64,000 nt of DNA, taken from contig NZ_JAGSYC010000017.1 in NCBI RefSeq assembly GCF_025685545.1, positions 1 to 64,000 of the forward strand, given 5' to 3'. The stretch's first letter is position 1; the number at the start of each line of letters is the position of its first letter. Of the stretch, positions 43,297-54,527 are shown piece after piece. The position numbers were made by a program, and so were the translations under genes. The stretch comes from Granulicella paludicola (GTDB lineage Bacteria; Acidobacteriota; Terriglobia; Terriglobales; Acidobacteriaceae). Below the pieces are notes generated by a model. It worked only from the letters and a program-made list of their open reading frames with translations, searched no databases and had not been told where the DNA came from.

Positions 43297-44250
43297 TCAT
43301 TTAGACGGGGTATCGGGGTTGCATAGCCAGTTCACATCCTTGGGGCTCAAAATAGCAATGTGATCACTGAATCGCTCTGGAGTGAGGTCAAGGTACTTGT
43401 CGGTAGCACCTAGACCGGATTGCCCCAAATACGTCGCCAAAGCCGGGAGCATTCGGTTCAAGCTCGCTCCCTCCAAAATCCAAGCGCGGATGCGATGAAC
43501 AGCGAACGTTGGCTTGAAATCGAGCAAACGTGGTTGAGTTGCGTTCTTGTCCAGTGTTCCCACGTTAGCGATTTTTCGTAGTCTACCGAAGCTATAGGTC
43601 AATTGCGATGGCTCAATGAACTTGCCAGCCTTATCCGCAAAGAAGGGGTGGTCTTGCGCCTCGCCTGTCGACTTGTCATCGACAAAGTTGCTCAAGAGCG
43701 TGCGAAGCTCATCGCCAATCGGGACCTCTCTCGATCGGGAGAATCGACGATTCGAGATGGTGAGCAGACTCCTCTTCAGATCGACATCACCTTTCCTCAG
43801 ATCGAGTACCTCACACGGTCTCGCCCCTGTGGCATAGAGAAGAATCAAATACGTCCGTAGCGTCCGTGCATCGACAAGACAGTTCGCCCTTGCCTGACTA
43901 CTTTCGGTCGCCTCCAAGATCCGATGAATCTCATTCAGACTGTAGATGTAGGGGCAATAGGTAAGCCGACTGCGCTTCGGCCGTGGAGGCATCAGAAGAG
44001 ACATCATTTCTCCCCGGCATGTCCAGTAGAAGAAGAACTTTTGTAGTCGCAAATAGTTCGCATGCCAGTTTGCTGAATTGTTTACAGGGTCTCGTAGATA
44101 GGAGGCGACCTGCTGAGTGGTGATCTCAGAAATCGTCGTATCTCCCACATGTTTGCTGAATCTCCAGAAGTGTCGCTCCGCTTGGTTATATCGGAGTCCG
44201 CCTGACTGCTTGTAAAGGACGTAAGCCGCGATGCTCTCCGCCAGTTTCAT
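43297..44250 (-). CDS. Tyrosine recombinase (smaller partner of pair 1)
   Basis: 317 residues. Core residues: Arg144 in YATGARPCEVLDL, His252-x-x-Arg255 in FAVHRIRAW and nucleophile Tyr286 in TDKYLDLTPERF; the usual second His is Gln in YLGQSGL. A SAM-like arm domain precedes it. Its ATG overlaps the stop of the larger recombinase gene (ATGA), so the two are translationally coupled. The arrangement recalls multi-recombinase elements (RIT type), in which adjacent tyrosine recombinases move as a unit, though only two genes are present per set here. Confidence 0.85.
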   Translation of the reverse strand: MKLAESIAAYVLYKQSGGLRYNQAERHFWRFSKHVGDTTISEITTQQVASYLRDPVNNSANWHANYLRLQKFFFYWTCRGEMMSLLMPPRPKRSRLTYCPYIYSLNEIHRILEATESSQARANCLVDARTLRTYLILLYATGARPCEVLDLRKGDVDLKRSLLTISNRRFSRSREVPIGDELRTLLSNFVDDKSTGEAQDHPFFADKAGKFIEPSQLTYSFGRLRKIANVGTLDKNATQPRLLDFKPTFAVHRIRAWILEGASLNRMLPALATYLGQSGLGATDKYLDLTPERFSDHIAILSPKDVNWLCNPDTPSK

Positions 44251-45560
44251 CGAAGACCACTTAGGCTAAAGTCAGCAACTTGGCGTAAGGAGGCTTTCGA
44301 AGACTTCGCGTAGATTCCGACGGATCTATTGTTCTGGTGCCCCAGAAAGTGAGCGATCTCATTCATCGGAACGTCTTTGTCGAGAAGCTCGGTGGCGCAA
44401 GAGTGCCTCAATGCGTGAGTACTGTACAGGGGTGACTTAATACGCAAGCGCCTCATACGATTCGCAACGATGCACCGCAGGGAAGCGTGCGCGGTAGAAC
44501 GAAACGGCGGCCTCAAGGTGACGAAAAAATTGGGGCACTCGGACTTAGGCCTTCCTGTGACCAAGTAGTTATTCAGAGCAAAGGCTACTTCTGAGGAAAT
44601 CGGAAATCGCTGTGTACGACCACCCTTTGCACGCCTGACTGTGAACGTTTCTTCGGTCCAATCGATGTCACTCAGCAAGAGCGATGAGACTTCTACGCTT
44701 CTCAAACCGTAAATCGCAAAGAAGAGAAGAACAGCATTTGCTCGCAGATCAGATGGCTTGTTTGATGTTCGAGCTGAGAGCATCCTTCTCACCTCACTCC
44801 AGGCCGGCCCCTTGGGATTCGGATCGGATCTTGGTGGATTCCGAAAGTGAATACCCGTTGAAATCAGCGATGGTGTCCATCCTCTTGACTCAGTAAAGCC
44901 AAATAAGCTTCGAAGAGTCCGACATACCGAAGTGATATATCCCGGCTTCATCCCAGCAAGACTGAGCGAAGCGATGTAGTCCAAAATGTCAGTTGAGCCG
45001 AGGTTTTCGAAGTACTCATGGCGATTAATTGCCCATCGTAGGAACCTCGAGGCTATGGATGTGTAGCCTCGAACAGTCGCCGGAGTCATTGATTTCGCAT
45101 CAGCGACGAATCGAATGTATTCCGGAAGAACGTTACCATAGGGAGGAATCGGCGGCGCGTCTATAGCCAGCGCATGGTGGAAACGCAACCAAGCAATCGC
45201 AGTACTGGTAAATGCGGTTGATATTCCAGCCACGCTCGCCTTTCGATGACAACCAGGAACCTTTACCCATCGTTTACTAGCTTCTTGGACCGCAAGTCGA
45301 TTCATCGGAGTGAGAGAGGAAATCTCAAGACACCCGACAACATTCAACAACATACCAGCGACCACGCGGACTCTGGCTAAGCTAGTTCCCTGCTTGTGAA
45401 GGTGTATGAGGTATTGTTCTCTTTCCTTGAAACAGACAGCGTTGCGATGACGAGCACGCGCAACCTGTTGCTTAAATAAGTCTTCGATCAATGGGCACCA
45501 TTTTCCTAAGACGAGTCGAGAGACACAAGAGTACCGGTTCCGGTTCCCATTACGTCCCAC
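44247..45560 (-). CDS. Tyrosine recombinase (larger partner of pair 1)
   Basis: 437 residues. It carries a complete set of active-site residues: Arg in IYGLRSVEVSSLLLSDIDW, Lys in RRAKGGRTQRFPIS, His-x-x-Arg in THALRHSCATELL, His in FLGHQNNRSVG and Tyr in IYAKSS. The N-terminal ~220 residues include an extra helical domain before the SAM-like arm-binding domain. It overlaps the 317-residue recombinase by 4 bp. Confidence 0.87.
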   Translation of the reverse strand: MGRNGNRNRYSCVSRLVLGKWCPLIEDLFKQQVARARHRNAVCFKEREQYLIHLHKQGTSLARVRVVAGMLLNVVGCLEISSLTPMNRLAVQEASKRWVKVPGCHRKASVAGISTAFTSTAIAWLRFHHALAIDAPPIPPYGNVLPEYIRFVADAKSMTPATVRGYTSIASRFLRWAINRHEYFENLGSTDILDYIASLSLAGMKPGYITSVCRTLRSLFGFTESRGWTPSLISTGIHFRNPPRSDPNPKGPAWSEVRRMLSARTSNKPSDLRANAVLLFFAIYGLRSVEVSSLLLSDIDWTEETFTVRRAKGGRTQRFPISSEVAFALNNYLVTGRPKSECPNFFVTLRPPFRSTAHASLRCIVANRMRRLRIKSPLYSTHALRHSCATELLDKDVPMNEIAHFLGHQNNRSVGIYAKSSKASLRQVADFSLSGLR

Positions 45561-45669
45561 ACCGCGTCCCAGGACTACGGTGCCACGAAGTTGAGCAGAG
45601 GATGGAGGGCGAGCTTGTCATTCGAATCCAATGCCGTCCTTGCTCCGGCCAGCCACTATTCAAGAAGAC

Positions 45670-46410
45670 TCAAATGGTTCGTACAAAGCTCATGACATCG
45701 TGCTCATCTTTCCAGTGCGTGCCCCCTTTGTTGGGGCAAAGCACATCGAGGTATTTCTTATATCGACTCGGCGTCAAGCGGAGGTAGTACTCGCTCGATA
45801 ACAGATTAAGCGAACCCATATACGCAGACAGCAGAGGCAGCATAGAATTCAGATCCGCATCGTCTTGTATCCAGCCGGCGATGCGATGGACGGCAAAGGT
45901 ATGACGGATATCGGTAAGCCTCAACGCCGAATCATATCCGTCCGAACGTACCAATGGGATCGTCTCGCAGAGGGCTTTGAATCGCAACCTCAAGGTTGAT
46001 TGACGGATCGGTGCTCCCTTGACATCGACGAAGACATGCGCGTCAACTTCCTTTGGACATCGTTTGATGAAGCAGTTCAGGGCGGCCATGACTTGATCGT
46101 TTAGAGGAATGCTTCTGCTCCGCTTGTACTGGCTGTTGTAGAGGCACAGGAGCTTCTTTCGCAGGTCGACGTCTTTGTAACGCAAGGCAAGAACTTCCGC
46201 TGACGTGGCCCCAGTCCCATAGAGGACCAGAAAAATCATTTGAAGGGTATTCGGTGCGATCTTCGACCCGGCACGACGGGTAGGCTGTGCGGCGTGGGTG
46301 TAGATCGATGCGATTTCAGTATGGGTATACACGTAAGATATAAATCCATGTACGCCAGAGGCGTCTTTGCGACTCGGGCGCCCATTGACACTCCGAAGTC
46401 TTAGCTTCAT
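45670..46410 (-). CDS. Degenerate tyrosine recombinase (smaller partner of pair 2)
   Basis: 246 residues from ATG 46410, which overlaps the stop of the upstream recombinase (ATGA). It aligns with the 317-residue recombinase of pair 1 but is shorter: the N-terminal arm domain is mostly lost. The catalytic Arg I is replaced (YGTGATSAEVLALRYKDVDL, Thr for Arg) and His-x-x-Arg is His-Arg-Ile-Ala in FAVHRIAGW, so Arg II is also missing. A Tyr is kept (SEYYLRLTPSRY). It is therefore probably inactive as a recombinase, though it may still bind its partner. Confidence 0.75.
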   Translation of the reverse strand: MKLRLRSVNGRPSRKDASGVHGFISYVYTHTEIASIYTHAAQPTRRAGSKIAPNTLQMIFLVLYGTGATSAEVLALRYKDVDLRKKLLCLYNSQYKRSRSIPLNDQVMAALNCFIKRCPKEVDAHVFVDVKGAPIRQSTLRLRFKALCETIPLVRSDGYDSALRLTDIRHTFAVHRIAGWIQDDADLNSMLPLLSAYMGSLNLLSSEYYLRLTPSRYKKYLDVLCPNKGGTHWKDEHDVMSFVRTI

Positions 46411-47870
46411 GGCAGAAACTCTAGACTGAAAGCGGCCACCTGCCGCAGGGCTTTTGGGGAGCACTTCGCGTACGCGCTTACCGACTCAACGTCGCGATGT
46501 CCGAGGAAATCGGCGATCTCCCGTAGGGATGCTCCGATCCGTAGGAGTTGTGTGGCGCAAGAGTGGCGGAGTGCATGCGAGCCCGTTGTTTTTGAAGCAA
46601 TTGACAGCTCTGACATTCGCCGCCGCACCATCATCCCTACAGTATTCGTCAAGATGGGACGGTAGGGTGGATAGAGAGTTACGAAGAGGCGTCTTTCGCT
46701 ACACTTCGGGCGACCGAAGCGGAGGTACTGCAAGATCGCTCGCCCCACTTCAGACTGTAGTGGAAACCTCTGCACGGGGCCCCCTTTGCATCGGCGGAGT
46801 GTAAAAACCTCGCCCTTCCAGTCGAAATCGGTCAGCAGAAGCGTCGTAACCTCAGATCCCCGAAGGGCATAGACCGAGCATAGGTACAGTACAGCACGGG
46901 CCCTCAAATCCGGGTAACTCAATTTCGCTGGGTAGTTGAGCAGTTTTTTTACATCCTTCCAGGACGGCCCGCGAGGTTCGGGGTCATATCTGCGCGTTCG
47001 CGGGCTACGAACCTTCTCCGATAATCTAGTGGCAATGAGGCCCTCTCGTTCGCAATAGCGAAAAAATGAACGCAAACCTTGGCACTTCGAAGCGATAGTT
47101 CCGTTCACACATCCGGCCTGCCGATGTCGGTCTAGGAAGCGGCTAACGTCCTCAACATCAATCGATTCCAGAGAAGGATGCCGCGACTCGGTTGCGTTCA
47201 AGAAGTCTCGTACGATTTGCAGATAGTTCACAACAGTACCAGCCGCATATCGTTCTTTTATGAACATGCCGAACCGCAAGAAACCTTCGTCATAAGGCCC
47301 TAAGGCTGGGGGTGTAGTGCAGATCATGTTGCTAAATCGCAACCACCGAAACGCGGCCCGTTCGAACTTGACGGCGGATGCGTTCGTCACACCTGCATAT
47401 CGACAAGCTATAGCTGCTTGCCATTGTTTGGCCGCAAGCTTGATCTCGGATGCGTCTACCAGTCTCAACTCCTTGAGCTTTAAAAACTCTATAACGTGCA
47501 GGGTCTCGCGGGCGACGATTTGAACGTTGGAAACGGAGGTTCCTTGCTGCAGGAGGTGCCAGAGGAAGAGTTCACGTTCTTTGAGCAAAGGCGCATTCAG
47601 ATGAGCCTCAAGTCGGTGTGGGCGTCGCACGAGCATTTCAAGAGCTGATCGAGAACATTCAAAGCCATCGCCAGCAGAATGGGCGGCGTGCCGCGTAGGT
47701 TTCGCCATGCGAGCATGGTACGCCCCCGGACGGACTGCGCCTGCGTTCATGTGCGGATTCGTCAAAGCAGCTCCCGGTTGCGCAAAAGACGAGATTTTAG
47801 GCAACGTAGCGCACTTGCCGAAAATCCGCCTCTTACTGGAGCGGTGGCACTTGAAGCGCCAAAGGAACAC
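46407..47870 (-). CDS. Tyrosine recombinase (larger partner of pair 2)
   Basis: 487 residues. Core motifs: Arg in VYALRGSEVTTLLLTDFDW, Lys in RRCKGGPVQRFPLQ, His-x-x-Arg in SHALRHSCATQLL, His in FLGHRDVESVS and Tyr in AYAKCSP. It is a diverged relative of the 437-residue recombinase with the same layout; the true start may be an internal ATG (for example MAKPTRHAAHS), because the first ~54 residues look less conserved. It is the first gene of the second pair. Confidence 0.85.
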   Translation of the reverse strand: MFLWRFKCHRSSKRRIFGKCATLPKISSFAQPGAALTNPHMNAGAVRPGAYHARMAKPTRHAAHSAGDGFECSRSALEMLVRRPHRLEAHLNAPLLKERELFLWHLLQQGTSVSNVQIVARETLHVIEFLKLKELRLVDASEIKLAAKQWQAAIACRYAGVTNASAVKFERAAFRWLRFSNMICTTPPALGPYDEGFLRFGMFIKERYAAGTVVNYLQIVRDFLNATESRHPSLESIDVEDVSRFLDRHRQAGCVNGTIASKCQGLRSFFRYCEREGLIATRLSEKVRSPRTRRYDPEPRGPSWKDVKKLLNYPAKLSYPDLRARAVLYLCSVYALRGSEVTTLLLTDFDWKGEVFTLRRCKGGPVQRFPLQSEVGRAILQYLRFGRPKCSERRLFVTLYPPYRPILTNTVGMMVRRRMSELSIASKTTGSHALRHSCATQLLRIGASLREIADFLGHRDVESVSAYAKCSPKALRQVAAFSLEFLP

Positions 47871-48133: not shown

Positions 48134-48146
48134 TGGCCAAACTTAA
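48134..48146 (-). promoter_or_regulatory. Motif TTAAGTTTGGCCA (site 1)
   Basis: Reverse-strand copy (plus strand TGGCCAAACTTAA) of a motif found four times around the lasso locus. It lies 67 bp from site 2, in opposite orientation. Confidence 0.5.
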
Positions 48147-48212
48147 TCTTCAACGAATGAGCAAAACGGGAATCGCAACGATCCAGGCCTGCAGTCGCAA
48201 CGCTCAACAAAA

Positions 48213-48224
48213 TAAGTTTGGCCA
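48213..48224 (+). promoter_or_regulatory. Motif TAAGTTTGGCCA (site 2)
   Basis: The context AATAAGTTTGGCCAA contains the palindrome TTGGCCAA. It faces site 1 and lies 285 bp before the GTG start of the first regulator gene. Confidence 0.5.
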
Positions 48225-48508: not shown

Positions 48509-49252
48509 GTGTATCGCCATGTACCTCGAGAACAAATCATTGCTGCGATTAATCATCTCAACGATCTCCGTAGGCAGATGCCGCGCACGAATGAGCGAGA
48601 AGCGCTTGCACACGAACGGCGAGAGGCTGCCACAAAAACGCTACTCACAAACATCACACGAACCAAGGCTCATCCCACGCTTCGAGCTCTTCGCGAAATC
48701 GCGGACATCTTTTCACTGACGATAGAGGGGGCACACCGACTCTTCGGCTACGATTTGTCCAAGATTCGCGAGCTGGACCGCCGCCTAAATGGCGGTCGAA
48801 CTCACATCATCGAATCTTATGGGTTCGAACGCGATCTCTTGATAGAGCTCCCTTCGAGACTCGCTTCCGAAGATCTATATGCAGCGAATGGTATGTTGCG
48901 AAACCTTGTCGAAGACTGGCAGCGCGACATACCCTTTAGAGCTCTTGCTGATGGCACTTGGCAGCGGCCCGGAACTTTTTACGTGCATGTGGGTACCAAG
49001 GATAGCCTAGGCTCCAGCCTTCCTGCGGGCGCAACCGCTTTGGTCGAGCCAATATCTCCATCTGAACAAGCGAGACCGAACCCGAGCAAGATCTACCTTT
49101 TGCAGTTCGCCAATGGATATCGATGCAGCTATTGCGTGGTTTCACGCGGCAAGCTTCACCTCCTCAGTGGAGTCTGGCCGAATCGTGTCACGGAAGAAAT
49201 CGATTATCCACGGGCCGTTCGCATCGCCGGCCACGTCAGGGCTTTCTCGTGA
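48509..49252 (+). CDS. Putative HTH / S24-like regulator, lasso locus
   Basis: 247 residues from GTG 48509, with GAGGAG twelve bases upstream. Residues 50-80 look like an HTH (PTLRALREIADIFSLTIEGA, HRLFGYDL). The C-terminal ~100 residues follow the outline of S24 (LexA/CI) domains: a possible nucleophile Ser in KDSLGSSLPAGATALVEP, then IYLLQFANGYRCSYCVVS, GKLHLLSG and RIAGHVRAFS. The usual catalytic Lys is not evident, so self-cleavage is doubtful. Its stop overlaps the GTG of the next gene (GTGA). This assignment is inference from pattern, not an exact family match. Confidence 0.6.
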   Translation: MYRHVPREQIIAAINHLNDLRRQMPRTNEREALAHERREAATKTLLTNITRTKAHPTLRALREIADIFSLTIEGAHRLFGYDLSKIRELDRRLNGGRTHIIESYGFERDLLIELPSRLASEDLYAANGMLRNLVEDWQRDIPFRALADGTWQRPGTFYVHVGTKDSLGSSLPAGATALVEPISPSEQARPNPSKIYLLQFANGYRCSYCVVSRGKLHLLSGVWPNRVTEEIDYPRAVRIAGHVRAFS

Positions 49253-50067
49253 ACCTGCCCTCACCCGAATACCCAGATCTATTTCAACTACCCTATAGGG
49301 ACCGGGGAGCTGAACTGATTCTTCCCTGGGAACATAGAACACGGGACCGCTTGTTTGCCACTGGATACAGACGATTCGAGCGATCCACAGAGGAGCTGCG
49401 CACAGTTCGCGAGACACTCGAAGCTCAGCTAAACACGAAATTCAGTAAGCGAACCGAGCGGCGTTATAGATCTTCGACCTCATCGCAGCCGCACATCGAT
49501 GCGCTGATCTATCTGACGGTGACGCACATGGCTCGGTATTCAGATGCGCTGACAACGAGTGGAGTCAGACTGGTCGATTCAAACCGCCATAGTTTGCAGA
49601 CACTTCTTCAGGTCCAGCAACTATCACAGCTGCCGAAGTCGACAACTAGAGTTGCAACGCCGGAGCCCACAGACGTCTGGCAGCAAAGGCATAGAGAATT
49701 TCTGGAATGGCCTACTCTCTTATCTCTCAAACATCCTCAGTTGCAGTTGTTGCAGGATAGGGTTTTGCGGGTATCATCTGCAAATCCACTCCAAGGTCTC
49801 GCTCCTCCGATTGCTCCTGGCTCGTGGATGCTTCTAGAAGGACTCTCGGCTATACCCGACATAAAGGGCGATTGGAGCAAGCAGGGATGGTCTCGGCCGA
49901 TTTATGTGCTGCGTCGACAGTTCGAGGCGACCTGGGGCCATCTCGACCGGATCGATAATCAATACGTCATCGTGTCGGATCGCCTTGAACGGCCTGCAAG
50001 GGCCACTTTCGGTGCCGAGGAACTCTCTTCTCTGAGTCGGGTGACCGCCATCGCAGTTCCAACCTAA
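49249..50067 (+). CDS. Second S24-like protein coupled to the first
   Basis: 272 residues from GTG 49249, which overlaps the previous stop (GTGA). The N-terminal half is helical (STEELRTVRETLEAQLNTKF, HIDALIYLTVTHMARYSDAL). The C-terminal ~110 residues again outline an S24-like fold: NPLQGLAPPIAPGSWMLLEG, GWSRPIYVLRRQFEATWGHL, YVIVSD, and a final LSRVTAIAVPT. No catalytic Ser-Lys pair is clear. The two proteins could form a complex that controls the lasso operon starting at 50245. I know of no such pair in described lasso clusters; function is inferred from position. Confidence 0.55.
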   Translation: MNLPSPEYPDLFQLPYRDRGAELILPWEHRTRDRLFATGYRRFERSTEELRTVRETLEAQLNTKFSKRTERRYRSSTSSQPHIDALIYLTVTHMARYSDALTTSGVRLVDSNRHSLQTLLQVQQLSQLPKSTTRVATPEPTDVWQQRHREFLEWPTLLSLKHPQLQLLQDRVLRVSSANPLQGLAPPIAPGSWMLLEGLSAIPDIKGDWSKQGWSRPIYVLRRQFEATWGHLDRIDNQYVIVSDRLERPARATFGAEELSSLSRVTAIAVPT

Positions 50068-50087
50068 GACCTCAGCGCACAATTGAG

Positions 50088-50098
50088 TAAATTTGGCC
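50088..50098 (+). promoter_or_regulatory. Motif TAAATTTGGCC (site 3)
   Basis: A one-base variant of the locus motif, 21 bp after the stop of the second regulator. A direct repeat with site 4, 81 bp start to start. Confidence 0.45.
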
Positions 50099-50118
50099 GC
50101 TTTGCGAGATCGGCCCAT

Positions 50119-50137
50119 ACAAATCTTGGCGATTTGT
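50119..50137. promoter_or_regulatory. Inverted repeat ACAAATC-ttggc-GATTTGT
   Basis: Perfect 7-bp arms with a 5-bp spacer between motif sites 3 and 4, about 108 bp before the B1 start. A candidate operator or transcript hairpin. Confidence 0.45.
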
Positions 50138-50168
50138 GCCGTAAACAGAAGGAATTTAGGGTACGGAG

Positions 50169-50180
50169 TAAGTTTGGCCA
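50169..50180 (+). promoter_or_regulatory. Motif TAAGTTTGGCCA (site 4)
   Basis: The context includes the perfect 10-bp palindrome TTTGGCCAAA and is framed by GGTACG...CGTACC arms (50159-50188 area). It is 65 bp before the B1 start. Confidence 0.5.
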
Positions 50181-50244
50181 AATCGTACCTTTCTCCACCA
50201 TCGGTCGACTTCTGAGGCTAATCTCTTTCTCACAAGAGGCGTCT

Positions 50245-50529
50245 ATGACGCATTCGGAGAGGGACAAGCCCATGCCCAACATTCCAAGTCACCTGCGATC
50301 CATGGTTGACCAAGATGGCGCAGCCATCTTGGATGCCGCGCGCGGTTCCATTACGACTCTCAACCCAACGGGGGCATTTATCTGGAGTGGCCTGGAACAG
50401 GCGAAGCATCCCGACGTGATTGCAACGGAGCTAGCGGAGGCAACTGGCGAGTCGCTTGAAGTTGTCCAGCTCGAGGTCAACTCCTTCATCGAATCCTTAC
50501 GGCAGCAGCAACTGGTTTCCCAAGGATAA
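50245..50529 (+). CDS. Lasso peptide B1 protein (PqqD-like RRE)
   Basis: 94 residues from ATG 50245, with AAGAGG about seven bases upstream. The sequence MVDQDGAAILDAARGSITTL, NPTGAFIWSGLEQAKHPDVI, ATELAEAT, VNSFIESLRQQQLV is a PqqD-type RiPP recognition element: a three-stranded sheet followed by a three-helix bundle. In split lasso systems B1 binds the leader of the precursor and brings it to B2 and C. It stands first in the biosynthetic run, 12 bp before the kinase-like gene. Confidence 0.9.
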   Translation: MTHSERDKPMPNIPSHLRSMVDQDGAAILDAARGSITTLNPTGAFIWSGLEQAKHPDVIATELAEATGESLEVVQLEVNSFIESLRQQQLVSQG

Positions 50530-50541
50530 AGAGGAGACCAC

Positions 50542-51903
50542 ATGACCCTTCATCTTGAGTCGATGACTTTCCGAGTCTTGATCGTGGAGAGCGATTCGCT
50601 GCGAGTATCTGCTGTCCGCACTGCAGCGGGCTATCAAATTCCACGCGTGGAGATCGCTCTGGGTCAGAGGAAGGTTCGACAGGCACAAGCTGCGGTTTTC
50701 TCAACTTGGGGGGCGAATGTCGTAGTTCTCGAGTTTGTGGGCAGGGATGATCCCTCCAGCGACCTTGTTTTGGCCGAACTACTTAGCCATGAGCGCTCCT
50801 CTTGCTTGGAGAGCGTTCCCATGCAACAGATCGCTCAAAATGAACTGTCAGAACGGGAGAAAGATCGCGTGATGCACCTCGGCACCGACCGGGACAAAGC
50901 CACCTTCTCCCGGATGGGTTGGTATCGCGAGGCGGCTGAATGGATTCGCTCGGCTACGGGCGATAGCGTCAGCCTCGACGAGAGGGTTGAGCAGTACAAC
51001 GCGGCAGGACCTTTCGCTCTGATTAGATTCGGTACGAGTGATGGACGGCGCTATTGGCTCAAAGCGGTTGGTGAGCCAAACCTTCACGAGTTCCCTCTCA
51101 CCTATCTGCTCAGCAGGGTCGCGGGTGTGCATGCGCCTACCATCGTATCGACGAAGCCTGAATGAAATGCATGGCTCATGTCGGAAGATGGGCATCCAGT
51201 CGGGGAGAGTGAACACGCGCCTCTCCCACTAAGTTTTCTTCAGTCGGCTGTGCGATCGTTGGCCGCTCTGCAAATCAGCACGATGGCAAGGCAACGGGAG
51301 TTTTTTCAAGCAGGCGTCTCGGACCACACTTCGAATGTTCTCGCAGCGCACGGCCGCGAACTCTTCGATTTTCTCGAAATGGCAATGGCTCTGCAAACGT
51401 CCGTGCGCGTGCCACGTGTCGACGTCTCGCGTCTTCGAGAAATACTCGAGATCCTGGGGAGGGTGAGTGACTATGCGGCGCGTATGCCAATCCCAGATAG
51501 TGTCTTGCACGGTGATCTTAATCTCGGGAATATTTTGCAGTGTGCAAGCCACTGCCAGTTCATTGACTGGAGTGATGCGTTCTTCGGCAACCCACTCATC
51601 ACATTCGAACACTTGTTGCTTCTAAACAGGACCGCAAGTCCTGACGAACTCCGGCATCGCGAGCGGTCCCTTCGGGACTTATACGTGTCAACAATGTCCA
51701 CAGTCTGTGATCCCGAGAGGATCCGCAAGGCTTTCGCCCTGTCACCGCTCCTCGCTGCGGCTTCGACGCTTTATGGACGAGGTAAATGGCTGTCGACTCC
51801 AGAGCGCAACGATCCCAGACGTCAAGCCTTCGGGAGAACCCTTGCACGGCACATGGATCGAGCTGCGAACGATCCTAGACTTTTGGCCCAGATCGCAAGC
51901 TAA
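50542..51903 (+). pseudogene. Phosphotransferase (APH/kinase-family) gene interrupted by one in-frame TGA
   Basis: Both parts are in the same frame: 50542-51165 (207 codons, then TGA) and 51166-51903. Read through, the protein is about 453 residues. The N-terminal domain (MTFRVLIVESDSLRVSAVRT, LPrV-like IPRVEIALGQRKV) is followed by an aminoglycoside-phosphotransferase kinase fold: SVLHGDLNLGNILQ (catalytic HGD..N at 51508) and FIDWSDAFFGNPL (metal Asp). At the stop, the context PE-TGA-NAWLMSEDGHP suggests an original TGG (Trp). Possible readings: a recent mutation, a base-call error or readthrough. In this operon it could phosphorylate the lasso peptide or a substrate, as kinases do in some other lasso clusters. 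Confidence 0.75.
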
Positions 51904-51955
51904 GTATCAGCACGAGGTTTGAGCTGAGAGAGCACAAAGCAGAGAAGGAGAGTTT

Positions 51956-52327
51956 ATGTTGCAGATCATCGAAAGCTGGTTCCTGTTGCTCTACTTCGAT
52001 TACCTTATGCACTTTCATGATTTTCGAGCCATACAGTCCCGGCTCTCGGCGTCGCAATCTCGCACAGATGTTCAGAATCCATTGAGAGTGGAAACACTCT
52101 GCCACGCCATGGATTTGGCTTCTGTCTTCTACATCAAGCGCGTGCTTTGTCTCCAGCGCTCGGCAGCCACGGCAATTCTCCTTCGTCGCCATGGCTGGAT
52201 GGCCGAGATGGTCATCGGGGCGCAGGTTTTGCCTCTTCAATCGCACGCATGGGTTGAAGTCGAGGGACGTGTCGTAAACGACAAGCCCTATGTCACAGAT
52301 ATTTATCGTGTATTGGATCGCTGCTAG
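51956..52327 (+). CDS. Lasso peptide B2 protein (transglutaminase-like leader protease)
   Basis: 123 residues. The family Cys-His-Asp triad is clear: Cys65 in RVLCLQRSAATAILLRR, His97 in LQSHAWVEVEG and Asp109 in VVNDKPYV. The domain is the usual B2 size. B2 cuts the leader after the Thr-x position so that the core's N-terminal amine is free for cyclisation. Start: ATG 51956 with AGAAGGAGAG just upstream. It ends 11 bp before the cyclase gene. Confidence 0.93.
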   Translation: MLQIIESWFLLLYFDYLMHFHDFRAIQSRLSASQSRTDVQNPLRVETLCHAMDLASVFYIKRVLCLQRSAATAILLRRHGWMAEMVIGAQVLPLQSHAWVEVEGRVVNDKPYVTDIYRVLDRC

Positions 52328-52338
52328 CGAGGTTCATC

Positions 52339-54243
52339 ATGAGCATCATTTGCGGAGTATTGAAAACGAACAGAACGAGCGCTTCTGAGAAAGACCTACA
52401 CCATCTCACTCAAGCGACAAAACGATACGGACTGGGTGAGATTTCAATCAAAGTCCTGGGGCATGTCGCCATGGGCTTTCAGCCCTTCGAGACCCATGAG
52501 CGCTCGCATCTCGAAGTTGGGCCAACGTTGGGGCCAGCTGGAGATCTCGTATGTTTCGATGGAAGGCTGGACAATCATCATGAGCTTGCTCGCAAGCTTG
52601 ACCTAACCAACCCGACGGTGTCCGATTCCGAGATCGTACTCGCGGCTTTTGCCCGGTGGGGAGCGGAATGCTTCTCCCGTTTCACCGGAGATTGGGCCGT
52701 CGCTCTCTGGTCGGAATTGGACGATCGTCTCTACCTTGCGCGCGATCACGCCGGTTCGAGAACACTCTACCTGGAACGCGCATCAGACGGCTTTCGCTGG
52801 TCCACCTATCTGGACAGCTTTGAGGGACAAGGACTCGATCACCTTTCCAAAGACTATGCGGCAAGTTATCTATCCTGCCTACCCGTTCAGGAGCGGACGC
52901 CGTACGAGAGCATCTCAAGCGTCCGCCCCGGTCACTACATTGCGATATGCGACCGCTTCGCTGTGCAGAGTAGCCATTGGAGTCCACTCATTCAGACATC
53001 GATCCAGTACGGATCCGATGCTGAATACGATGAGCATTTTCTTGATCTATTCGGACGATCGGTCGCACGACGCACTGGACCGGGAGCAAAGGTATTGGCG
53101 CAACTCAGCGGCGGTATGGATTCCACCGCGATCGTCTGCATGTCTGACCATCTTCGACTATCTCAAGATCCCGGTGCCGAACTCTTGGACACAATTTCCT
53201 ACTACGACGACTCTGAATCGTCTCTCGATGAACGGTCATACTTCGAGATCACGGAAGCCCGGCGCGGCAAGGTTGGCATTCATCTGAACACAGCCATCTC
53301 TCAACGAGCGTTTGATCCTCCACAGGTAAAGGAGGGGATCTACCGTCTTCCCGGTGCCGACAGCTTTTCAATTTCTCAGGAGCGCCTGCTCAAGACGAAT
53401 GCCTGGGACAGAGGCTATAGGGTCGTCTTATCTGGCATCGGTGGCGACGAGGTGCTGGGCGGGATTCCCGATCCACTTCCAGAGTTGGCAGGATACCTCG
53501 TCACCGGGAACGTATCAGGGCTCCTGAGTCGTAGTTTGGCTTGGTGCCTGACCGATCGCACGCCTTTGATCTTCTGCCTTCGCGACACACTCGGATTCGC
53601 GTTCCGACTCTACGGCCGTGGGAGATTGAGAACCCGAAAGGGTCCACCATGGCTATCTCCCGAGCTGCGTCGGTTGAGCGAGCACGCGGAACGGGCTTAT
53701 GTGAAATTCCCCGAACGACTTGCGGCATTGCCTCACCAGTTAGACAACGCGCTGTCATGGTGGCAGGTCATGGAGACGCTTCCACACACAAGACCCCAGC
53801 TTTTGTTCAGGCCCGAATATCGATATCCAATGCTGGACAAGGATTTGGTGACCTACCTGTTCAGCATTCCTCGGGATCAGCTACTCAGACCGGGCCGACG
53901 CCGCACGCTCATGCGTCGAGCACTGCAAGGAATTGTGCCTCTAGAGATTTTGGAGCGGCGACGAAAGGCGTTCCAGCTTAGAGCTCCGCTGAATGCGATG
54001 CAGAGAGCACAGGAAAAACTTGACCGACTATGGGACGACTCTCACCTCGCCGAGGAAGGTTTTGTCGATATCGACAGATTACGGCACGAGCAGAAGCGCT
54101 GCTCCAATGGTGCTCCGGAGTGGAGTCAGGCACTGATGAAAACGATCGCATACGAGTTGTGGTTGAGAGCTAGCCACACGACTACTAGTGGTAGTGAAGT
54201 TTCCATGCATGGAAGCGCTGCATTCGAAAAACATTCGGCCTGA
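52339..54243 (+). CDS. Lasso cyclase C (asparagine-synthetase-like)
   Basis: 634 residues. The N-terminal ~200 residues are a class-II glutaminase-like domain (VCFDGRLDNHHELARKLDL, GDWAVALWSELDDRLYLARD), but it starts MSIICG, so the catalytic Cys at position 2 is missing, as is usual in lasso cyclases. The ATP-pyrophosphatase domain has AQLSGGMDSTAIVC (SGGxDS loop) and SGIGGDEVLGG. The enzyme activates the Asp/Glu side chain of the core and forms the isopeptide ring. It ends 82 bp before the precursor gene. Confidence 0.93.
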   Translation: MSIICGVLKTNRTSASEKDLHHLTQATKRYGLGEISIKVLGHVAMGFQPFETHERSHLEVGPTLGPAGDLVCFDGRLDNHHELARKLDLTNPTVSDSEIVLAAFARWGAECFSRFTGDWAVALWSELDDRLYLARDHAGSRTLYLERASDGFRWSTYLDSFEGQGLDHLSKDYAASYLSCLPVQERTPYESISSVRPGHYIAICDRFAVQSSHWSPLIQTSIQYGSDAEYDEHFLDLFGRSVARRTGPGAKVLAQLSGGMDSTAIVCMSDHLRLSQDPGAELLDTISYYDDSESSLDERSYFEITEARRGKVGIHLNTAISQRAFDPPQVKEGIYRLPGADSFSISQERLLKTNAWDRGYRVVLSGIGGDEVLGGIPDPLPELAGYLVTGNVSGLLSRSLAWCLTDRTPLIFCLRDTLGFAFRLYGRGRLRTRKGPPWLSPELRRLSEHAERAYVKFPERLAALPHQLDNALSWWQVMETLPHTRPQLLFRPEYRYPMLDKDLVTYLFSIPRDQLLRPGRRRTLMRRALQGIVPLEILERRRKAFQLRAPLNAMQRAQEKLDRLWDDSHLAEEGFVDIDRLRHEQKRCSNGAPEWSQALMKTIAYELWLRASHTTTSGSEVSMHGSAAFEKHSA

Positions 54244-54325
54244 ATCTAGCGGCCATCAAGCTCCGTGTGGAAAGGCTTCTAGCTTGCACCGCACGGAAAT
54301 CCGAAACACAGAGAGGAACCACAAT

Positions 54326-54463
54326 ATGCGATACACACGTCCCCAAATCACTGGCAGCTTTCCCGCTGTCTCAACCATCAAGCTAACCAAAGGTCTCCCT
54401 CCCGTCGAAACTCAAGACCCGACCGAGATCTCCAGCAACGCTGCATACCAGGCTGACGAATAG
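54326..54463 (+). CDS. Lasso precursor peptide (A)
   Basis: 45 residues, ATG 54326, with GAGAGG about nine bases upstream. The leader (residues 1-22) has Y3-x-x-P6-x-I8, the motif that the B1 RRE binds, and Thr21 at position -2. The predicted core starts at Gly23 (GLPPVETQD...) and has Asp31 as its ninth residue, giving a Gly1-Asp9 macrolactam. The tail is 14 residues (PTEISSNAAYQADE) with Tyr as a possible steric plug. Glu28 (position 6) and Glu34 (position 12) fit less well. It stands last in the operon, which is unusual because precursors are mostly first. Confidence 0.85.
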   Translation: MRYTRPQITGSFPAVSTIKLTKGLPPVETQDPTEISSNAAYQADE

Positions 54464-54491: not shown

Positions 54492-54527
54492 AAGTCCAGT
54501 CTCTGCTCTAGAGCAGAGGCTGGACTT
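54492..54527 (+). terminator. Strong hairpin after the precursor gene
   Basis: Arms AAGTCCAG...CTGGACTT and TCTGCTC...GAGCAGA join into a stem of about 17 bp with one G-T pair and a very short loop (TA, effectively CTAG). It starts 29 bp after the precursor stop. No clear U-run follows, so it may terminate, protect the transcript's 3' end, or separate it from the convergent peptidase gene at 54761. Confidence 0.6.

Follow-up and report, generated by a model that had tools for sequence, protein, structure and literature searches.

The window analysed here is the first 64,000 nucleotides of contig NZ_JAGSYC010000017.1 from the soil bacterium Granulicella paludicola (RefSeq assembly GCF_025685545.1), and our subject is a gene cluster within it that resembles those for lasso peptides, that is, peptides whose defining ring is made from the new N-terminal amine. 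Its genes all lie on the plus strand, in the order regulator, B1, kinase, B2, C and a 45-residue precursor, A (Table 1). An earlier note on this DNA had placed A last, and had named B1, B2 and C from the letters alone; these assignments hold. B1 scores 48.1 bits against Pfam PqqD (cut-off 23.4) and is like the recognition element of ribosomally synthesized and post-translationally modified peptides (RiPPs); against the NCBIfam lasso PqqD model it reaches 35.2 bits, below the cut-off of 70. B2 passes the NCBIfam lasso model with 77.1 bits (cut-off 33), its Cys65/His97/Asp109 triad is invariant in six aligned sequences, and a PDB sequence search using the B2 profile gave no matches. C has SGGMDS at residues 257-262 and Ser as residue 2, so that the catalytic Cys2 is indeed lacking; its best NCBIfam match is lass_lactam_cya, at 221 bits of a required 525. 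It is 38-56% identical to cyclases from five other genomes of the same genus, and in a cyclase tree it groups with the cyclases of ordinary lasso precursors. B2 and C both fall with lasso proteins, and close relatives of the locus carry precursor-like peptides. We regard it as almost certain that this is a lasso-family cluster, as the note proposed for an acidobacterium.

Table 1. Features of the cluster and its surroundings (window coordinates)
Feature	Position	Strand	Remarks
Operator-like sites 5' of regulator	48135-48146; 48212-48223	-; +	One mismatch each from GTAA[AG]TTTGGCC
Regulator, N-terminal half	48509..49252	+	No Pfam match; broken by 1-bp deletion
Regulator, C-terminal half	49249..50067	+	Different frame; single fused protein in relatives
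Operator-like sites before B1	50087-50098; 50168-50179	+	Exact; 81 bp apart
B1, PqqD-like RiPP recognition element	50245..50529	+	Start uncertain: ATG 50245 or 50272
APH-fold kinase, interrupted	50542..51903	+	In-frame TGA 51163-51165; Pfam APH family scan
B2, leader peptidase	51956..52327	+	Cys65, His97, Asp109; NCBIfam lasso_biosyn_B2
C, asparagine-synthetase-like lasso cyclase	52339..54243	+	Asparagine synthase and glutamine amidotransferase domains
Precursor A, 45 amino acids	54326..54463	+	Leader 54326-54382, core 54383-54460
Precursor leader marks		+	Tyr3 = -17, Ile18 = -2; leader motif YTRPQI
Precursor rule residues	Lys22 54389-54391; Glu28 54407-54409	+	C-terminal AYQADE
Inverted repeat, terminator-like, 36 bp	54492..54527	.	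3' of precursor

A profile-guided search returned 64 loci, the best 53 of which were used, all labelled as Acidobacteriota groups; the 11 left out (L090-L100) show 22-28% identity. Together with the window and two more loci of the same genus this gives a family set of 56 loci with C, from which the duplicates L022-L024 (of L037, L054 and L041) are excluded in all counts. The named relatives include Granulicella, Edaphobacter, Silvibacterium, Acidicapsa and other Acidobacteriota. Where at least 4 kb of upstream sequence is available (44 loci), B1 is present in 43, the kinase in 40, B2 in 41 and a prolyl-oligopeptidase-like (POP) gene in 29. Where the downstream sequence extends to at least 7 kb (42 loci), 38 have an isopeptidase-like gene, 41 a TonB receptor (the raw count of 42 included an unrelated gene of the window) and 32 an anti-sigma gene; these usually face the precursor. 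The terminal precursor is the usual order among the loci read, and because relatives repeat the same order, precursor included, the arrangement is not one of chance.

The layout, which the earlier note thought uncommon and foreign to described clusters, is common among Acidobacteria and has in part been published already. An acidobacterial fosmid cluster described in Negri 2022, BGC (biosynthetic gene cluster) 482.1, has B1, an aminoglycoside-phosphotransferase-like kinase, B2, C, A1 and A2 (PMC9064862); the order is that of the window, a 2118-bp gene comes next there, and its authors set the core at a Gly that has Leu or Ser at -2 rather than by a cut after Ile(-2). Duan 2023 reported precursors with Ile or Val at -2 alongside kinase or phosphotransferase genes in Acidobacteriaceae (PMC10368454), the combination seen in the window (Ile18 and an APH-fold kinase gene, here interrupted). 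Their bsf cluster from Bradymonas sediminis shares split B1 and B2, a kinase, C and Ile(-2), with the cut demonstrated after Ile-X, but its kinase is HPr-kinase-like rather than APH-fold, and its core was assigned as Gly1-Asp8 (PMC10368454), whereas the acidobacterial cores have their acid at 8-16 and a lysine rule, described below. The Group II soil clusters of Negri 2025 likewise have split B1 and B2 and tailoring genes, and in three cases POP genes lie among the core genes; the accessible portion of that text differs in mentioning no lysine rule, the word lysine being absent from it (PMC12670498).

The placement of the core depends on the leader. In Bradymonas, the cleavage site comes after Ile(-2) and keeps a constant spacing to a YxxPxL motif (Duan 2023, PMC10368454). 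The window leader has the form YxxPx[LI] and one of Thr, Ile or Val at -2 (YTRPQI and Ile18), and 67 of 70 cores from relatives have Ile or Val at that place. By this ruler the leader ends Ile18-Lys19 and the core is LTKGLPPVETQDPTEISSNAAYQADE; the fixed leader, from Tyr-17 to Ile/Val-2, therefore argues for a cut before Leu20. The core tail is AYEADE or AYQADE in 59 of 82 distinct cores, with near variants in the remainder.

Every one of these 82 cores holds a Lys followed by Asp or Glu at +6 (49 cores), +7 (28) or +8 (5); we call this the lysine rule. Counted from the cut, the acid lies at position 8-16, and the residues before the Lys vary in kind and in number (1-8); those flanking it show no conservation. 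When simply the first Lys is taken, with no choice of pair, an acid stands at +6 in 48/82 and at +7 in 28/82, whereas no other offset as far as +14 has one in more than 14/82. The combined 75 of 82 at +6 or +7 compares with 18.5 ± 3.6 (maximum 31) in 2000 runs in which the residues after Lys were shuffled. Counting by clusters at about 45% identity changes nothing: all 65 representatives obey.

The rule was framed on 70 cores from loci found through C, among which K-x5/6-[DE] occurs in 65, against 11.7 ± 3.0 for shuffled cores; 12 further distinct cores served as a holdout. These were found solely by a DNA pattern for AY[EQ]ADE followed by a stop, and all 12 follow the rule. The pattern occurs at 33 places in 16/399 genomes of the class (its backward version at 3 places); 30 of the 33 were read, and L118, which lacks YxxP, is outside the count, although its Lys and Glu fit. 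The rule also holds in L161 and L172, both located through the B2 family. In precursor calling, open reading frames (ORFs) with loose leaders were dropped unless they ended in the manner of ADE, SDE, GDE, VDE, DEE, DEQ or DWE. No precursor was counted for L051 (which has YxxA, and in which Lys to +6 also fits), for L061 and L089, which end early, or for L081, whose core is the same as that of L074.

Ordinary lasso precursors from the same phylum provide the controls. The NCBIfam lasso B2 model matches 67/297 genomes of the phylum, and 40 B2 regions (about half of the B2 match places) were read, with clear precursors in 12; six ORFs inside B2 genes or distant from C were dropped. Four of these regions are family members, all obeying the rule, and the other eight contain ordinary precursors, ten with Thr(-2) and four with Ile(-2), the latter without a kinase match nearby. 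Counted from Tyr-17 in the same way, Asp or Glu lies at 7-9 in 14/14 of them and the lysine rule in 0/14, from which we conclude that the ruler is sound in the phylum and that the family departs from it: any acid lies at 7-9 in 27/82 family cores, and the acid of the rule in 12/82.

The cyclase tree (89 sequences, a quick search with SH-aLRT support only, and several long branches) places 62 rows of lysine-rule loci on one side of a branch with SH-aLRT 99, some of these rows being second C genes or from loci where no precursor was seen. Adjacent to them are the ordinary ring-8 cyclases of L164 and L137. Since the lysine-rule cyclases thus form one clade beside ordinary ones, the rule looks like a single innovation inside ordinary lasso cyclases. 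Glu382 (window numbering) is present in 62/62 lysine-rule rows and 0/10 control rows, and may be taken as a lead, no more, to the amine site.

The window copy itself is very probably a damaged, decaying member of this family, to judge from two disruptions and from the displaced isopeptidase and receptor genes described below; neither the disruptions nor the lysine rule figured in the earlier note, which had described S24-like regulators in the plural. We rejected the two-gene interpretation: in 11 other loci with a strong regulator match there is one protein of about 517-600 amino acids, and the window is one base short against four aligned relatives, a GTGA overlap joining the two halves. One relative's fused regulator gives a sub-threshold S24-like match (E 0.02), and the predicted structure has a mean pLDDT of 49.4. 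In the kinase, codon 208 is TGA in the window and TGG in the five relatives compared, and at least 90% of 36 aligned kinases have Trp there; the catalytic motifs HGDLNLGN and IDWSDA both lie downstream of the premature stop.

The isopeptidase gene stands apart from the cluster here. The isopeptidase profile finds no match in the window, as the earlier note had said, but this does not extend to the genome, whose single match to the relatives' S9 peptidase lies on another contig (C13, 54% identity to a relative's). Its neighbours are a TonB-receptor gene close to the end of the contig and a gene that looks AraC-like by eye; we found no lasso genes beside it. With isopeptidase and TonB genes on C13, the producing and uptake halves are unlinked in this genome. 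Lack of an isopeptidase as a family trait was rejected, the gene being present in 38/42 loci; its absence here is a peculiarity of this genome. The relatives' enzyme is related to AtxE2 (5txc, E 1.5e-27), with the catalytic Ser kept in the one aligned, and scores 187 bits against the NCBIfam model, below the cut-off of 400. Relatives thus resemble AtxE2-type systems in carrying an S9 peptidase and TonB receptor facing the precursor, from which the window differs in having these genes on another contig and no isopeptidase in the cluster.

How, then, should the lysine rule be read? Our overall interpretation, to which we give an even chance, is that the family makes a lasso-type variant in which C joins the side chain of a core Lys to Asp or Glu, and that the window holds a decaying copy. 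That the Lys belongs to the ring seems probable from the cores: membership would account for a Lys that never fails, a Lys-acid span of 7-9 residues and preceding residues that vary. That its side-chain amine is the donor we put slightly short of even. It is favoured because it would need no second cut and nothing is conserved beside the Lys. A little more tentative still is the suggestion that acidobacterial cyclases switched their donor to the core Lys side chain, with the acid 6-8 residues on and one to eight residues left free as an N-terminal tail. On this proposal B1 would hold the leader through Tyr-17 to Ile-12, the kinase would phosphorylate the precursor or the product, and B2 would cleave after Ile(-2)-Lys(-1). 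C, with ATP, would activate the Asp or Glu side chain and link it to the amine on the side chain of the conserved Lys, giving a ring of 7-9 residues behind a short free N-terminal tail; the C-terminal tail may thread through this ring. In relatives the product would be exported, then imported via the TonB receptor, and the AtxE2-like isopeptidase would open it. For the window this predicts a ring between core residues Lys3 and Glu9, which are Lys22 and Glu28 in precursor numbering.

The chief rival, unlikely in our estimate, keeps the usual lasso chemistry but allows larger rings: after the Ile(-2)-X(-1) cut, residue 1 would supply the amine that is joined to the acid, and the Lys would matter only for recognition, whether by C, by the kinase or by the receptor. 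Gly or Ser occupies position 1 in 51/70 cores, as for an ordinary donor residue, the Ile(-2) sister clusters L164 and L137 have Gly1-Asp/Glu8 spacing, and the window would carry a 9-residue ring, Leu1-Glu9; yet rings of 8 to 16 residues would be required, with the acid of the rule at 7-9 in 12/82 cores against an acid there in all 14 controls, and the acid tracks the Lys (standard deviation, SD, 0.61) rather than residue 1 (SD 1.77), the pairs in this comparison being chosen by the rule. Less probable again is a second cut that removes the residues before the Lys and lets the alpha-amine of the Lys close an ordinary lasso ring of 7-9 residues. Taking the Lys as residue 1 gives rings of 7, 8 and 9 residues in 49, 28 and 5 of the 82 cores, within the known lasso range (PMC10368454). 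A candidate protease exists in the oligopeptidase-B-like POP gene of 29/44 loci, but loci without POP also have their Lys after 1-7 residues, and with no residue conserved beside the Lys, a second cut there has no visible signature. Oligopeptidase B is moreover expected to cleave after Lys, not before it. That C makes no lasso, but an unthreaded branched ring or another product, we hold to be improbable. Threading is unreadable from sequence and C is distant from the curated cyclases (221 of 525 bits), but an AtxE2-like peptidase accompanies 38/42 loci, and isopeptidase action is said in a 2026 review to be restricted to threaded lassos (PMC13352647).

The core proposed in the earlier note, with Thr(-2), Lys(-1) and a ring from Gly1 to Asp9, has hardly any claim left. 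The window by itself fits it (TKGLPPVETQD), but the nearest relatives (SVKGAPLQEIG, SAKIAPQSEVG and SEKNSPSLEGN) lack Thr, Gly or acid at those positions, and we rejected it. Thr immediately precedes the ring Lys in 7/82 cores, and a 22-residue leader would be needed, whereas in the family and in the controls the spacing from the Tyr to Ile/Val or Thr is 15 residues. Several points weigh against our own interpretation as well. The window core also fits the 9-residue ring just described, its Glu9 falling in the ordinary acceptor range of 7-9, as do the 12/82 cores with the acid of the rule at 7-9; POP presence has no clear relation to Lys position; and the shuffles overstate independence, because the cores share ancestry. 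In addition, the family isopeptidase resembles AtxE2, which acts on ordinary lassos, both C and B1 lie below their NCBIfam cut-offs, and the regulator and kinase disruptions could be sequencing or assembly errors.

The open-access literature, covered mostly through titles and abstract openings, yielded no description of either a lysine-donor lasso or the lysine rule. Were the lysine donor correct, the peptides would resemble graspetides in being side-chain to side-chain macrolactams, although graspetides are made by ATP-grasp enzymes and this family has an asparagine-synthetase-like one. A Lys-marked ring family would extend the definition of a lasso, ring closure being independent of a new N-terminus, and would explain why cores are misplaced under rules that demand Thr(-2) and an acid at 7-9. 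It may also explain why no predicted mass came from expressed clusters, a reason that we infer: both Negri studies looked for the masses they had predicted, BGC 482.1 gave no product in E. coli (Negri 2022, PMC9064862), and in the later study peptidase genes were omitted from the constructs and no product was detected (Negri 2025, PMC12670498). The reading does give a testable prediction, namely the identity of the joined lysine and acid.

The kinase and the regulator deserve separate comment. The predicted kinase structure (mean pLDDT 93.0) matches macrolide and corramycin phosphotransferases, so that peptide phosphorylation and self-protection are both possible roles on the strength of this model. 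Ser and Thr are both absent from just 1/82 cores, and for this reason core composition is uninformative on the kinase target; a Tyr near the core end is kept in 81/82, including loci where no kinase was found. For the regulator, GTAA[AG]TTTGGCC is the predicted operator: with at most one mismatch, it occurs before B1 in 12/12 loci with a strong regulator match and in 0/36 without.

Some neighbouring and minor features may be recorded here. The next gene after the precursor encodes an M61 aminopeptidase on the opposite strand, and four tyrosine-recombinase (phage integrase family) genes stand in series just upstream of the cluster (43297-47870, minus strand). The same genome has a second, different lasso-like cluster (G000:C22; L134, 4609-8861) with C, a candidate 55-residue precursor, B1, a gene resembling an HPr-type kinase by eye, and B2. 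Elsewhere in the family, L068, L074, L075 and L081 have two C genes, no kinase match and tails ending DWE, not ADE; these loci are close kin and the tails are perhaps one event. In L084 (5914-9339) a 1141-residue gene matching the POP profile occupies the place where other loci have separate kinase and POP genes, and with a start resembling the kinase N-terminus it is possibly a kinase-POP fusion. Finally, in genome G001, where no C match was found, two B2 genes (L102, 9008-9397, and L103, 9413-9763) both break off at one and the same position immediately ahead of the catalytic His and run on into related DNA (66% over 1.7 kb).

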